Source of the DNA: an uncultured Verrucomicrobiota bacterium
Lineage (GTDB): Bacteria; Verrucomicrobiota; Verrucomicrobiia; Limisphaerales; UBA9464
NCBI GenBank assembly: GCA_903880005.1
Contig: CAIRNV010000115.1
Coordinates: 1-41,073 of the forward strand
Direction: 5' to 3'
DNA length: 41,073 nt
Below, in pieces: positions 100-40,235 of this stretch (the stretch's first letter is position 1; each line of letters starts with the position of its first letter). The translations under genes were made by a program, and so were the position numbers. The notes below the pieces were generated by a model that searched no databases, was not told the origin of the DNA, and was given only the letters and a program-made list of their open reading frames with translations.

Positions 100-177
100 C
101 CGGAACGATTCAGTTGGGTCGGTCGTGCTTGCTCGATCTGCTTCGCAATCACTTCCCTCCCAACTGAATCGTTCCGG
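100..177 (+). repeat. Family 1 repeat, short form, perfect terminal inverted repeats
   Basis: The ends CCGGAACGATTCAGTTGGG (100-118) and its exact reverse complement (159-177) form a 19-bp perfect inverted repeat around a 40-base core. The 5-bp sequence CTAGA directly flanks both sides (95-99 and 178-182), which looks like a target-site duplication. The right-hand flank contains the apbE stop codon (TAG on the minus strand), so the element sits immediately at the end of that gene. Related copies lie at 16023, 26595 and 40076. It is either a small non-autonomous mobile element (MITE-like) or a mobile terminator-like hairpin. Confidence 0.85.
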
Positions 178-1095
178 CTAGACCCGTGCGGAGTTCCACC
201 ACCGTGCCCCGGGATGACGCGAGGCCAGCCGTTGCGGGATGCCTTGGGAATCCACGAGCAGCGCGGTGGACCATGCGTCCGAGGCGGCAGCCGAAGGCAA
301 CGCGACGGCCGCGAGACGTCCGGCCGCAACGGGTTGGCCCGTGCGAGGATCGATGACATGGGCGGGGCCATGGATGGCGCGACCCCATGCCGCGCTCACG
401 GACAAGGTCTCGTCCCGCAGATCCACGACGGCGTCGTGGATCGACAAGTCGGGCGCACCGGGCAACGCCACGCGCCACGCTGGAAGCCCCGGTGGAGTGC
501 CCATGGCCACGACCGAGCTGGTGCCCCCATGCAGGAGCGCGGACTCCACGCCGCATTCGCGGAGGATCTCGGCGGCACGATCCAGCGCCCAGCCCTTGCC
601 GATGGCCCCCGGATGGATCTCGACGCCCGGACGCGCGAGCCACACGGACCGGGTGGACGGGTCGAGTTGGACATGGCGCCACCCGACAAGGGCGTGCGCG
701 CGGTCGATGGCGGCCGGGTCCGGCGCGACGGGATCGCCGCCTTGGAAACCCCATGCGCGAAGGAGCGGGCCGACGGTGGGGTCGAAGGCGCCGCCCGTTG
801 CCTGGACCAGGTCCTGGACGAGGCAAAGGAACTGGAAGACAGGAGGCTCGACGGCGACCGGTCGCCCATGCGCCTCGCGGTGGATGCGCGCCAGGCACGA
901 GGCGGGCAGGTACGGGGAGAGCCACCGTTCAACGCGAGCCACCTCGTTCAACGCGTCCTCGGCGGCCGCACGGAGCGCCTCGGGACGCGCCCCGTGGAGG
1001 GCGATCTCGAACCGAGTGGCCATGGCCTCCGCCGCGACACGCACGACAGGGGCCGGACCGTCGGCATGCCGGGCGATGGCGGCGAGCGGGGCCAT
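178..1095 (-). CDS. apbE: ApbE-family FAD:protein FMN transferase
   Basis: The protein of about 305 residues belongs to the ApbE family, which moves FMN from FAD onto a threonine of target redox proteins (for example NqrB/NqrC or RnfG subunits) using Mg2+. Family hallmarks are visible in order: an N-terminal segment 'MATRFEI', the mid-protein 'GGAFDPTVGPL', the 'HPGAIGKGWALDRA' motif, 'GGTSSVVAMG', then 'HVIDPRTGQPV' and a metal-site-like 'AAASDAWSTALL' near the C-terminus. No clear lipobox is seen, so cell location is uncertain. I chose the ATG at 1095; a GTG at 1119 is in frame and possible. It lies 39 bases downstream of the greA-type gene on the same strand, so the two may be cotranscribed. 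Its stop codon directly abuts a family 1 repeat. No target protein is encoded nearby. Confidence 0.92.
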   Translation of the reverse strand: MAPLAAIARHADGPAPVVRVAAEAMATRFEIALHGARPEALRAAAEDALNEVARVERWLSPYLPASCLARIHREAHGRPVAVEPPVFQFLCLVQDLVQATGGAFDPTVGPLLRAWGFQGGDPVAPDPAAIDRAHALVGWRHVQLDPSTRSVWLARPGVEIHPGAIGKGWALDRAAEILRECGVESALLHGGTSSVVAMGTPPGLPAWRVALPGAPDLSIHDAVVDLRDETLSVSAAWGRAIHGPAHVIDPRTGQPVAAGRLAAVALPSAAASDAWSTALLVDSQGIPQRLASRHPGARWWNSARV

Positions 1096-16022: not shown

Positions 16023-16185
16023 CCGGGACGATCCAGTTGGGAGGCAAGTGATTGCGCTGCAGATTCTTTCGCAAGACGAGGAGTGAGCGAGGCGCGGGCC
16101 AGTGCCAGGCCCGTAACAAGCGAAGGACGAGGCTCTTCCGAAAGAAGATCCAGCAAGCACGACCGAGCCAAGTGAATCGTTCCGG
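16023..16185 (+). repeat. Family 1 repeat, long form
   Basis: The left end CCGGGACGATCCAGTTGGGA and the right end AGTGAATCGTTCCGG match the ends of the short copies with a few changes. The outer ~40 bases on each side match the short core (AAGTGATTGCG..., GCAAGCACGACCGAGCC), with about 85 extra bases in the middle that include the hairpin CGGGCC-AGTGCCA-GGCCCG. A second long form lies at 40076-40235. This copy lies between the ISAs1 element and the end of the minus-strand nucleotidyltransferase gene. Confidence 0.75.
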
Positions 16186-16190
16186 TTGAG

Positions 16191-16230
16191 GCATGGCGGC
16201 TGCGGCCGGGGACGGCCGCGCTGCCAGGGG
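16191..16230 (-). repeat. Family 2 repeat fragment
   Basis: On the minus strand the core GCGCGGCCGTCCCCGGCCGC and adjoining bases match the family 2 copies at 26672 and 29851. It lies directly beside a family 1 copy, in the same arrangement as at 26.6 kb. Similarity outside the core is weak. Confidence 0.45.
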
Positions 16231-25645: not shown

Positions 25646-26596
25646 ATGGCGAACACGGCGCGGAAGCCAGACCTCCTCTTCTCGGGCGAAGCCGCCACGT
25701 GGCGCGCGGCCGGGGCCACGTGGGGGCAGTTGTACGGCGACTTCCAGCGCCTCGGCGTGAGCTTTGAATGGCATGAGTTCACCGTGCGCGAGCCGTTCGA
25801 CTGGGCTCGCAGCTTTCATCCCCAAAGCGTCGAGCTGTGCCTCAACCTCTCGGGGGTCGCGGAGGTCGGCACGGGCAAGGACGTCGCGCGCTACCGGGAA
25901 GGGACGGGCGGCTTCTATCGCCAGGGCAGCGAGCCGCTTCGGGCGGTGCGGCTGCCGGGCGAGGCGCATCGGTTCATCACCGTGGAGTTGTCGCCGGGGT
26001 TCCTGTCCCGGCACCTGGGCGAGGGCATGGCCGACCTGCACCCCTTGATAGCCTCGGCGCTGGCCGGGGACGTGTCCCGCAGCGGCGCGGCGGCGGTGGC
26101 GGTGTTGAACACGCGCCAGCGCGACTTGCTGGGGAGCCTGCGTCAACCGCCCGTGTTGAAGTCGGCGCAGGCGCTGTGGTTCCAGGCGAAGGCCATCGAG
26201 CTGATGGGGGAGTTCTTCTTCAGGCCAGGCTCCCGGGACGAGCTGTTTTGCCACCGCCAACAACGGGTCGCGCTGGACCGCGTGGAGGCGGTGCAGGCCA
26301 TCCTGCGTCGCAACGTGGCCGCCGCCCCGTCGCTGGAGCAGATCTCCCGCGAGGTCGGGTGCAGCCCCTTCTACCTCAGCCGCACCTTCTCGAAGGAGAC
26401 GGGCCAGACGATCCCCCAATACCTGAGGCAACTGCGGATGGAGAAGTCCGCCGAGCTGCTGCGGACGGGGCGCTACAATGTCACGGAGGTCGCGATGGAG
26501 GTCGGCTACAGCTCGCTGAGCCACTTCTCGCAGACGTTTCACCAGACCTTCGGGTGCTGCCCGGGCCTCTATCCCATGGGCATGCCGAAGCTGTAA
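25646..26596 (+). CDS. AraC-family transcriptional regulator
   Basis: The 316-residue protein ends with a typical AraC/XylS DNA-binding domain of two helix-turn-helix units (residues ~215-310): 'APSLEQISREVGCSPFYLSRTFSKETGQT' and 'YNVTEVAMEVGYSSLSHFSQTFHQTFG'. The N-terminal ~200 residues resemble a cupin-type ligand domain ('SVELCLNLSGVAEVG', 'RFITVELSPGFLS') but no effector can be named. AGGA lies ~9 bases before ATG 25646, supporting that start over the ORF-track one. It is 28 bp after the permease gene and upstream of the DUF6807 operon; it might regulate either. Its TAA stop is merged with the left end of a family 1 repeat. Confidence 0.92.
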   Translation: MANTARKPDLLFSGEAATWRAAGATWGQLYGDFQRLGVSFEWHEFTVREPFDWARSFHPQSVELCLNLSGVAEVGTGKDVARYREGTGGFYRQGSEPLRAVRLPGEAHRFITVELSPGFLSRHLGEGMADLHPLIASALAGDVSRSGAAAVAVLNTRQRDLLGSLRQPPVLKSAQALWFQAKAIELMGEFFFRPGSRDELFCHRQQRVALDRVEAVQAILRRNVAAAPSLEQISREVGCSPFYLSRTFSKETGQTIPQYLRQLRMEKSAELLRTGRYNVTEVAMEVGYSSLSHFSQTFHQTFGCCPGLYPMGMPKL

Positions 26597-26668
26597 CGAT
26601 TCAGTTGGGAGGGAAGTGATTGCGAAGCAGATCGAGCAAGCACGACCGATCCGACTGAATCGTTCCGG
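26595..26668 (+). repeat. Family 1 repeat, short form, fused to AraC stop codon
   Basis: AACGATTCAGTTGGGAGGG through ACTGAATCGTTCCGG is a second short copy, near-identical to the one at 100-177 but in reverse orientation on this strand. Relative to the gene it follows, the orientation is the same as for apbE. The last two bases of the AraC TAA stop are the first two bases of the repeat. Confidence 0.85.
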
Positions 26669-26671
26669 CTT

Positions 26672-26757
26672 GGAGTGGCGGCCAGGGACGGCCGCGCCCC
26701 CGGCGTTGAGCAACCCACGACGTTTCCCGAATCCACCACACCTTCGGGGTGCGCCCA
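26672..26757 (-). repeat. Family 2 repeat copy
   Basis: Read on the minus strand, about 85 bases align with the copy at 29851: GTGGTGG...ACGTCGTGGG...GCGCGGCCGTCCC(T)GGCCGCCACTCC. It begins 3 bases after the family 1 copy, so the two families form a composite here. Divergence is moderate. Confidence 0.65.
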
Positions 26758-29802: not shown

Positions 29803-29850
29803 GCCGGCTCCATTCCCCAAGGAACCACAGGCCACCTGGCGGGCCCAGGG

Positions 29851-30010
29851 CCGGTGCATCCCGTGGTTGTTGGTGGTCCCGAAGACGTCGCGTGGGCTCA
29901 ACCCTGGGAGCGCGGCCGTCCCCGGCCGCCACTCCATGCTCCCGCCCTGCGGGACCGGTCCGATCTCCGCCGCACGGGCAGATCCCGCCGACAACTTCGG
30001 GATGCACGGG
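29851..30010 (+). repeat. Family 2 repeat, long form
   Basis: The ends CCGGTGCATCCCGTGGTTGT and ACAACTTCGGGATGCACGGG form an imperfect inverted repeat, which extends outward through GGGCCCAGGG on the left (29841-29850) and CCCAGGGCCC on the right (30011-30020). GGGCCCAGGG also occurs as a direct repeat at 30008-30017, so either a longer inverted repeat or a flanking duplication is possible. The left ~75 bases match the short copy at 32549 almost base for base. It fills most of the gap between the oxidoreductase and riboflavin synthase genes. Confidence 0.75.
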
Positions 30011-30072
30011 CCCAGGGCCCATCTGCGGCCCCGGGCTTGACCCGGTGGCGGTTCCATGGTCTTTCCCCGCCC

Positions 30073-30708
30073 ATGTTCACGGGCATCGTCGAGGAGTCCG
30101 GTCGGGTGGTTTCCATCGAGCCGCAGGCGGCGTCCATTCGCCTGGCCGTCTCGGCCCGCGTGGTCGCCAAGGGCGTGCGACTAGGGGACAGCATCGCCGT
30201 CAATGGCTGCTGCCTCACCGTGGCCGCCGTGCGAGGCCGCGGCCATTCGCGCACGCTGGAGTTCGACCTCCTCGCCGAAACCTGGCGCCGCACCAGCATC
30301 GGCGATGCTCGGGTTGGATCGGCCATCAACCTGGAGCGCTCGCTTGCCGTCGGCGACCGCATCGGCGGGCACTTCGTCACCGGCCATGTGGACGGCACCG
30401 GCGTCGTCCGGCGCTGGGAGGCATCCGGCCGCGACTACGTCCTCGAAGTGGACGCCCCCAAGGACCTGCGCCGGTACCTCGTCCCCAAGGGATCGGTGGC
30501 CGTCGATGGCATCTCCCTGACGGTCGCCGACGTCCTGCCCCGGGGCTTCCGGATCTGGATCATACCCCACACGCGCGAGGTCACGTCGCTCGGGGAACGA
30601 AATGTGGGCGACCGGGTCAACCTCGAGGCCGACATGCTCGGGAAGTACGTCGAAAGATTCGTGTCGGCGCGCGCCGCACGGACGGGCCGTGCCCGCAAGG
30701 ATCGGTGA
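30073..30708 (+). CDS. ribE: Riboflavin synthase alpha subunit
   Basis: The 211-residue protein is riboflavin synthase, which dismutates two 6,7-dimethyl-8-ribityllumazine molecules into riboflavin and a pyrimidine that is recycled. It has the family's two tandem lumazine-binding barrels. The first begins 'MFTGIVEESGRVVSI' and holds 'GDSIAVNGCCLTV'; the second holds 'GHFVTGHVDGTGVV' and 'KGSVAVDGISLTV'. The N-terminal 'MFTGIVEE' fixes the start at ATG 30073. Length is normal. It is not beside other riboflavin genes, and I see no FMN riboswitch upstream, where a family 2 repeat lies instead. The last ~15 residues are Arg/Ala-rich. Confidence 0.95.
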   Translation: MFTGIVEESGRVVSIEPQAASIRLAVSARVVAKGVRLGDSIAVNGCCLTVAAVRGRGHSRTLEFDLLAETWRRTSIGDARVGSAINLERSLAVGDRIGGHFVTGHVDGTGVVRRWEASGRDYVLEVDAPKDLRRYLVPKGSVAVDGISLTVADVLPRGFRIWIIPHTREVTSLGERNVGDRVNLEADMLGKYVERFVSARAARTGRARKDR

Positions 30709-32480: not shown

Positions 32481-32548
32481 GGGAACATGCCCAACGCCAC
32501 CATGCCAGCACCCCACGCGCAAGGCCGGGTTGCCAACCCGCGCCCGCG

Positions 32549-32650
32549 CCCGTGCATCCCAAAGTTGTGGGTGGTCCCGAAGACGTCGTGTGGGCTCAAC
32601 CCCGGGAGCGCGGCCGTCCCAGCTCTCGCCGACAACTTCGGGATGCACGG
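32549..32650 (+). repeat. Family 2 repeat, short form
   Basis: CCCGTGCATCCCAAAGTTGT on the left and ACAACTTCGGGATGCACGG on the right are near-perfect inverted ends. The inner ~55 bases (GGTGGTCCCGAAGACGTCG..., GGAGCGCGGCCGTCCC) match the long copy at 29851. Relative to that copy about 55 bases are missing before the right end. Confidence 0.8.
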
Positions 32651-32701
32651 CGTCCCCGCGCCGGTCATGGCTGGGCCCCGGGCGAAAGAGCCGAATGCGA
32701 G

Positions 32702-40075: not shown

Positions 40076-40235
40076 CCGGAGCGCTGGGGTTGGGAGCGCG
40101 ATCGCGGCACCGCAAACGCGCCGGCAAGATGAGGAATGCGCGAGCAGTCCCGCATGCGATGGGTCACAAGCCAAGGCCGAGGCCCTTTGGGAGGATGATG
40201 CAGCAAGTCCGACCAACCTCATTGAATCGTTCCAG
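40076..40235 (+). repeat. Family 1 repeat, long form, diverged
   Basis: The sequence aligns along its length with the long copy at 16023 (GTTGGGAG..., AGATGAGGAATGCGCGAG, GCAAGTCCGACC, ATTGAATCGTTCC), though with many substitutions. Minus-strand translation of both copies gives recognisably similar peptides ('LAHSSSCERICSAI' and 'LAHSSSCRRVCGAA'), which independently supports the alignment. The ends are eroded. Confidence 0.65.

Follow-up and report, generated by a model that had tools for sequence, protein, structure and literature searches.

What kind of element gives rise to a repeat with inverted ends that recurs, in long and short copies, along a single contig of an uncultured verrucomicrobial genome? 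We analyzed a window of 41,073 nucleotides (i.e., the whole stretch of DNA under study, contig C115) from a 5.02-Mb genome assembled in 492 contigs (G000). A first-pass annotation had placed a long, a short, and a reverse copy of the repeat in this window, and all three were confirmed to within 1 to 2 bases. Judged from sequence comparisons, the repeat is very probably a non-autonomous MITE of the ISKra4 type (p-MULT 4, prokaryotic Mutator-like) that lies upstream of promoters and carries a REP palindrome inside.

Ends, length, and target-site duplication of the element

The copies in the window, their ends and target-site duplications (TSDs), and the gene next to the long copy are as follows.

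29852..30009, + strand: full-length MITE copy of 158 bp, counting the 2 terminal bases on either side (BLAST family, terminal inverted repeat [TIR] pattern, 9/9 TSD)
29852..29876, + strand: left TIR CGGTGCATCCCGTGGTTGTTGGTGG, pairs with the right end
29985..30009, - strand: right TIR, pairs with the left end
29843..29851, no strand: left 9-bp TSD GCCCAGGGC of the long copy, in the family-level register (9/9)
30010..30018, no strand: right 9-bp TSD GCCCAGGGC of the long copy (9/9)
32550..32650, + strand: short MITE copy with an internal deletion, from the second half of the REP through to near the right end
32541..32549, no strand: left TSD CGCCCGCGC of the short copy, 7/9 to the right TSD
32651..32659, no strand: right TSD CGTCCCCGC of the short copy, from flank comparison
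about 26672..26756, - strand: old, diverged MITE copy cut off on one side, with only the left end and the REP
30073..30708, + strand: gene with two lumazine-binding domains (riboflavin synthase alpha-type; PF00677), 3' of the long copy, context only

A BLAST search with the long copy recovered at least dozens of full-length relatives in the genome (81 to 93% identity), and the 19-base end GTGCATCCCGAAGTTGTGG had 101 genome matches at up to three mismatches, compared with 5 for a control pattern. Copy counts were taken from searches and fetched loci and are lower bounds (40 of 150 first-look BLAST candidates were scored). The proposal that the repeat forms a dispersed family, clearly delimited by inverted ends, was thus borne out, and the genome-wide search gave the opposite of a repeat limited to the annotated copies and devoid of defined ends.

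The GTGC-to-GCAC core of the long copy occupies positions 29854 to 30007. Two extra bases, most often CG or CC on the 5' side of each end, lie beyond GTGC and GCAC, and the TIR family consensus after these two terminal bases is GTGCATCCCGAAGTTGTGGGTGG. A terminal C was present at 36 of 41 left ends and 33 of 41 right ends. The ends pair over about 24 to 26 bp, the entire element is foldable as one long hairpin, and the fold of the long copy was far better than those of shuffled sequences (z = -7.7). Measured from GTGC to GCAC, 35 two-ended copies spanned 152 to 155 bp, while six were shorter (93, 97, 111, 123, 137, and 138 bp), with a different deletion in each. The shorter copies arose by independent internal deletions and there is no separate short form; what had been annotated as a long and a short form is one full-length element plus individual deletion derivatives. 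Elsewhere in the genome (L150, contig C274), an old left end of the MITE lies directly before a methyltransferase gene that looks to be of the ubiE type; an apparent right end inside the coding sequence at that locus is probably a chance match.

The left and right flanks of the 41 two-ended copies had on average 6.4 of 9 bases in common, compared with 2.7 in mismatched pairs. Flank identity was 0.63 to 0.83 at exactly nine positions, starting 2 bases beyond GTGC/GCAC, and at background level outside them. Perfect 9-bp TSDs flanked 11 of the 41 copies (0 of 1,640 control pairs), and TSDs matching at seven or more of the nine positions flanked 26 (5 of 1,640 control pairs). In about a quarter of the copies no TSD could be recognized, in keeping with the age or rearrangement of such copies. 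The first-pass annotation had asked whether GGGCCCAGGG at the long copy is a 10-bp duplication; a duplication is indeed present, with a length of 9 bp, and GGGCCCAGGG represents a shifted register because the terminal GG of the element happens to equal a genomic GG on the left. When the window flanks were compared with related genomes in search of an empty site, none matched both flanks at one place.

The open reading frames spanning the element resemble those that arise mechanically in high-GC DNA, and an Rfam search with the element gave 0 matches. Being within about 100 to 400 bp in length, gene-less, multicopy, and bounded by inverted ends and a TSD, the element is a MITE.

A REP palindrome inside the element

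Two REP palindromes in the window, one inside the long copy and one solitary, are relevant here.

29903..29929, + strand: REP palindrome CCTGGGAGCGCGGCCGTCCCCGGCCGC within the MITE, with free copies and arrays genome-wide and the lowest substitution rate in the element
16202..16225, - strand: solitary REP palindrome (one mismatch), without MITE ends, beside a partial copy of another repeat ("family 1")

The 24-base core of the REP had 108 genome matches at up to two mismatches, compared with 0 for the control, and many of these were outside the MITE. Free REPs occur in inverted pairs with GGGACCGCGCCCGTCCCCGGGCGC and in tandem BIME arrays with a length of about 92 bp. The sequence at 16191 to 16230, annotated as a fragment of the MITE family, is real but corresponds to the solitary REP listed above. 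Similarly, the approximately 55 internal bases described as common to the long and short copies are present, but part of them is a REP that also occurs apart from the MITE.

Tandem BIME arrays of about 92 to 106 bp were observed on contigs C39, C317, C46, and C306 (L116, L117, L118, and L119, respectively). The arrays combine two distinct REP palindromes, GGGAGCGCGGCCGTCCCCGGCCGC and GGGACCGCGCCCGTCCCCGGGCGC, that point in opposite directions, and some reach contig ends. The RAYT gene on C46 (L118) has REP pairs on both sides; its product scored above the cut-off for PF01797 and just below that for NF047646 (75.2 bits; cut-off, 80). As a short high-copy palindrome that forms inverted pairs and BIMEs and flanks a RAYT gene, the central core of the MITE is a REP. 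It resembles the REPs/REPINs described with RAYTs (PMC2817692, PMC3116915, PMC3733652) in its high copy number, inverted pairs, tandem arrays, and a RAYT flanked by pairs, and differs from them in its head (GGGAG/GGAG as opposed to GTAG) and in that these copies lie within the transposon of another system. The head has neither a GTAG nor a CGTC tag and, by this tag, the REP belongs to neither super-family of PMC3733652.

Copies of the REP that lack MITE ends also occurred outside G000: in G001 (a related genome), G004, and G048 (more distant). G004, which belongs to the same genus as the window, contains the REP-bearing MITE together with many free REPs. A search of G004 for a Y1 transposase gene found none; the REPs there may have persisted after loss of their RAYT, or an assembly gap may hide the gene.

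In a search from the ends alone, the REP was present at up to two mismatches for 84 of 100 ends, the rest being mostly broken old copies. Because these ends were found without a REP query, the presence of the REP in the MITE is no search artifact. The number of inferred changes per site was 0.48 in the REP and 2.53 elsewhere in the MITE. (A conservation profile of the MITE of G010, G019, and G025, meant as a control, was left out because its alignment mixed near-palindrome orientations.) This conservation suggests constraint on the hairpin or homogenization; selection on the hairpin, homogenization with free REPs, and repeated re-insertion are all possible.

A later arrival of the REP is the core of one alternative, according to which a pre-existing palindrome or MITE is a target into which the REP inserts repeatedly, at the same site, by means of its own RAYT. 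The much lower divergence of the REP relative to its carrier is as expected under this alternative, and there are precedents: GTAG-15 dimers in A. variabilis and CGTC-1 dimers in H. neapolitanus are likewise nested in a longer outer inverted repeat, single elements lie within small palindromes in T. roseum, and the outer palindromes were called targets in each case (PMC3733652). These REP dimers in palindromes are the nearest precedent for the present arrangement. Whereas the outer palindrome was described as a target in A. variabilis and H. neapolitanus, it is here a MITE that has duplications of its own and is matched by an IS (see below). Moreover, intact copies contain one REP at one position and in one orientation, no REP-free intact copy occurred among the 100 TIR ends, and several degenerate old copies retain REP remnants. 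The 9-bp duplication is outside the entire element, and the outer sequence by itself explains both the dispersal and the promoter spacing. We consider insertion of the REP into a standing target improbable, and prefer a MITE that carries the REP with it.

Insertion sequences and MITEs with the same ends

The exact 19-base ends were present in 18 of 293 genomes, and the ends are widespread in the order without this interior. Named records with these ends were nearly all verrucomicrobial metagenome-assembled genomes, many of them titled Akkermansia. The CAMDJH, CAMAUY, and CAMDGV records (L199, L200, L209, and others), titled Akkermansia muciniphila, are contigs of genomes in the order of the window, and these titles look wrong.

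In genome G168 (L308, the same 3,036-base contig as JADLFD010000012.1 [L307]), two identical ends of about 24 bp, approximately 2.2 kb apart, enclose two genes. The first belongs to the DruA family (PF14236; E = 4e-23). The second matched the ISKra4 transposase model NF033572 (E = 4e-45) with a score of 154.6, below the equivalog cut-off of 205, so that it is a divergent ISKra4 member. The same layout was found in G046 (L328; 2,191 bp), with proteins 59% identical. Neither of these approximately 2.2-kb ISs had a clear TSD. In G010, G013, G025, G030, and others, the C terminus of the transposase is followed by the same end about a dozen bases on. On inspection, no common sequence was apparent between the MITE and the L308 IS beyond their ends. 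A search of G000 found no ISKra4 transposase with these ends; its two distant ISKra4-like genes (C384 and C200) had none nearby. A multicopy IS could have dropped out of this assembly because it consists of 492 contigs.

In these verrucomicrobial ISs, a DruA-family ORF regularly precedes the gene for the ISKra4-type transposase (L308:159-1022 and L328:656-1471), with further DruA-family matches in L332, L334, and L351. DruA is otherwise known from the Druantia defense system. A defense role for the ORF was considered and set aside (0 PADLOC matches), and we treat the ORF as an IS passenger.

Members of ISKra4 have 18- to 39-bp IRs with a conserved terminal C, produce 8- to 9-bp DRs, and insert upstream of sigma-A promoters (PMC3942029). 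The length and terminal C of the MITE ends, the 9-bp TSD, and the occurrence of these ends around an ISKra4-family transposase all point to this group.

Other MITEs with the same ends have different interiors. In G130, G195, and the pair G095/G123, the interior holds inverted pairs of GGAG-type or related palindromes, which in G130 and G195 also occur free elsewhere within their own genome. Same-end MITEs of other genomes are likewise flanked by 9-bp TSDs, many of them 9/9; the duplication is a perfect 9 bp for the G130 copy, 9/9 in G095, and 8/9 in G123. Another MITE of approximately 160 bp with the same ends occurs in dozens of copies in G019 and G025 (L163, L164, L200, and others), and its interior is a chain of perfect hairpins (GTTGTCGCGCTGCGACAAC, GGACGCCGCGCTGCGGCGTCC, and CGCGCCGTTCAGGCGCG). 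At least one MITE end accompanied the hairpin GTTGTCGCGCTGCGACAAC at 30 of 30 loci examined, and these interior hairpins appear to be MITE specific. That every MITE interior in the order consists of free REPs is ruled out by this occurrence of GTTGTCGCGCTGCGACAAC with MITE ends. Given the REP interiors of G130, G195, G095, and G123 on the one hand and the MITE-specific hairpins of G019 and G025 on the other, REP capture by these MITEs looks recurrent but not universal. Amplification of a REP-bearing MITE to many copies was seen in G000 and G004 only.

These distributions bear on a simpler account, in which there are only ordinary REP/BIME repeats and the outer inverted ends belong to the REP family. 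In its favor, the conserved middle is a REP for which the genome has a RAYT. The ends, however, occur without this REP in other genomes, REPs occur without these ends, and the ends are those of an ISKra4-type IS; the separable distributions of ends and REP refute the account, which we regard as almost certainly wrong. An ISKra4-type MITE with an internal REP remains the preferred reading.

Promoter spacing and relation to known systems

A generic two-box promoter scan against shuffled sequences gave little signal; a promoter signal emerged once positions were counted from the element end. In G000, 19 of 82 flanks had TTG exactly 27 bp outside the end (background, 1.4 ± 1.1 per position), as did 37 of 153 flanks in other genomes (background, 2.6 ± 1.6). 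Agreement with TATAAT after such a TTG peaked at a spacing of 17 (1.89 vs 1.21; standard deviation, 0.13). Both two-ended copies in the window keep to the 27-bp rule.

30037..30042, + strand: candidate -35 box TTGACC, exactly 27 bp past the right end of the long copy and upstream of the riboflavin-synthase-like gene; the -10 box is weak
32517..32522, - strand: TTGCGC at a -35-like position, exactly 27 bp past the left end of the short copy

The 27-bp distance runs from the edge of the element to the first T of the -35 box; once the 9-bp duplication is subtracted, 18 bp remain. Insertion of ISKra4 was reported at 13 to 17 bp from the IR-genome junction (PMC3942029); the two distances are close, and their definitions may differ. 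The 27-bp TTG was about equally frequent on the two sides of the element (9 right, 10 left), and similarly even use of the two sides was reported for an element whose ends are perfectly complementary (PMC3942029). We infer that the boxes at 27 bp act as working promoters. Like several ISKra4 members, the MITE is positioned at a constant distance upstream of sigma-A-type promoter boxes.

Proximity to promoters could also mean that the element is a structured non-coding RNA or regulatory hairpin, non-mobile and maintained by selection upstream of genes. It folds far better than shuffled sequences, adjoins promoter-like boxes, and has a highly conserved middle hairpin. Against this stand the 0 Rfam matches, the copies with 9-bp TSDs, the occurrence of both orientations relative to the promoter, and the sharing of its ends with a transposase-encoding IS. 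We judge a non-mobile RNA or hairpin very unlikely as the origin of the family; a regulatory use of the MITE following insertion is possible.

For a mobile MITE of the ISKra4 type, we propose that an ISKra4-type transposase would have acted in trans on the MITE ends and so moved the element. Each jump would also have brought the REP hairpin to a promoter-upstream site, and separate internal deletions would have produced the shorter copies. Both the mobility of the MITE and the action of the ISKra4 transposase on its ends are deduced here from genome comparisons. A wider claim, that ISKra4-type MITEs in this order repeatedly capture host REPs/REPINs and set them a fixed distance upstream of promoters, is tentative, and we would sooner doubt than assert it. 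If true, the element would be a composite of two systems, in which a promoter-targeted carrier moved by DDE transposition encloses a constrained RAYT-type hairpin, and the MITE would in effect distribute a regulatory hairpin among promoters.

The MITE agrees with the ISKra4 group, p-MULT 4 (PMC3942029), in end length, terminal C, 9-bp duplication, and a set distance upstream of sigma-A promoters, as well as in the use of both orientations where the ends are near-identical and, in related genomes, in the matching transposase that such ends enclose. It differs in being gene-less, approximately 158 bp long, and in having a REP inside. The main text of PMC3942029 does not mention MITEs, and its p-MULT 4 phylum list does not include Verrucomicrobia. 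RUP, NEMIS, and ERIC (listed in PMC3733652) are likewise short, gene-less, and dispersed, with inverted ends, and BrickBuilt of Porphyromonas gingivalis (PMC4596501) is also a MITE with another type of repeat inside (a minisatellite). Unlike these four, the present MITE has ISKra4-type ends, an internal REP with its own RAYT, and promoter-tied insertion. Each component is of a known kind, but in the open-access literature searched we found neither ISKra4-type MITEs nor such MITEs with a REP nested inside, nor any account of the recurrence of this nesting in related bacteria.

An anonymous repeat is now tied to a specific type of transposase and a clear insertion rule. Promoter targeting, which had been reported for several ISKra4 ISs, here extends to numerous gene-less copies in genomes of one order, with base-sharp spacing. 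The REP is a mobile palindrome that rides in another kind of transposon, and in this way REPs could spread even where they have no transposase of their own. In uncultured verrucomicrobia, these MITEs could serve as promoter markers by virtue of the position rule.

The other repeat of the window, "family 1" (CCGGAACGATTCAGT...), has ends unrelated to those of the MITE, as the first-pass annotation had noted. It occurs at window positions 100 to 179, 16142 to 16187, 26589 to 26668, and 40192 to 40235, as well as in L128 and L135. The right part of the old MITE copy at 26672..26756 has been replaced by the family 1 element at 26589 to 26668. At several places, family 1 abuts or truncates MITE copies and one solitary REP, as if it had an insertion preference in or beside these repeats.
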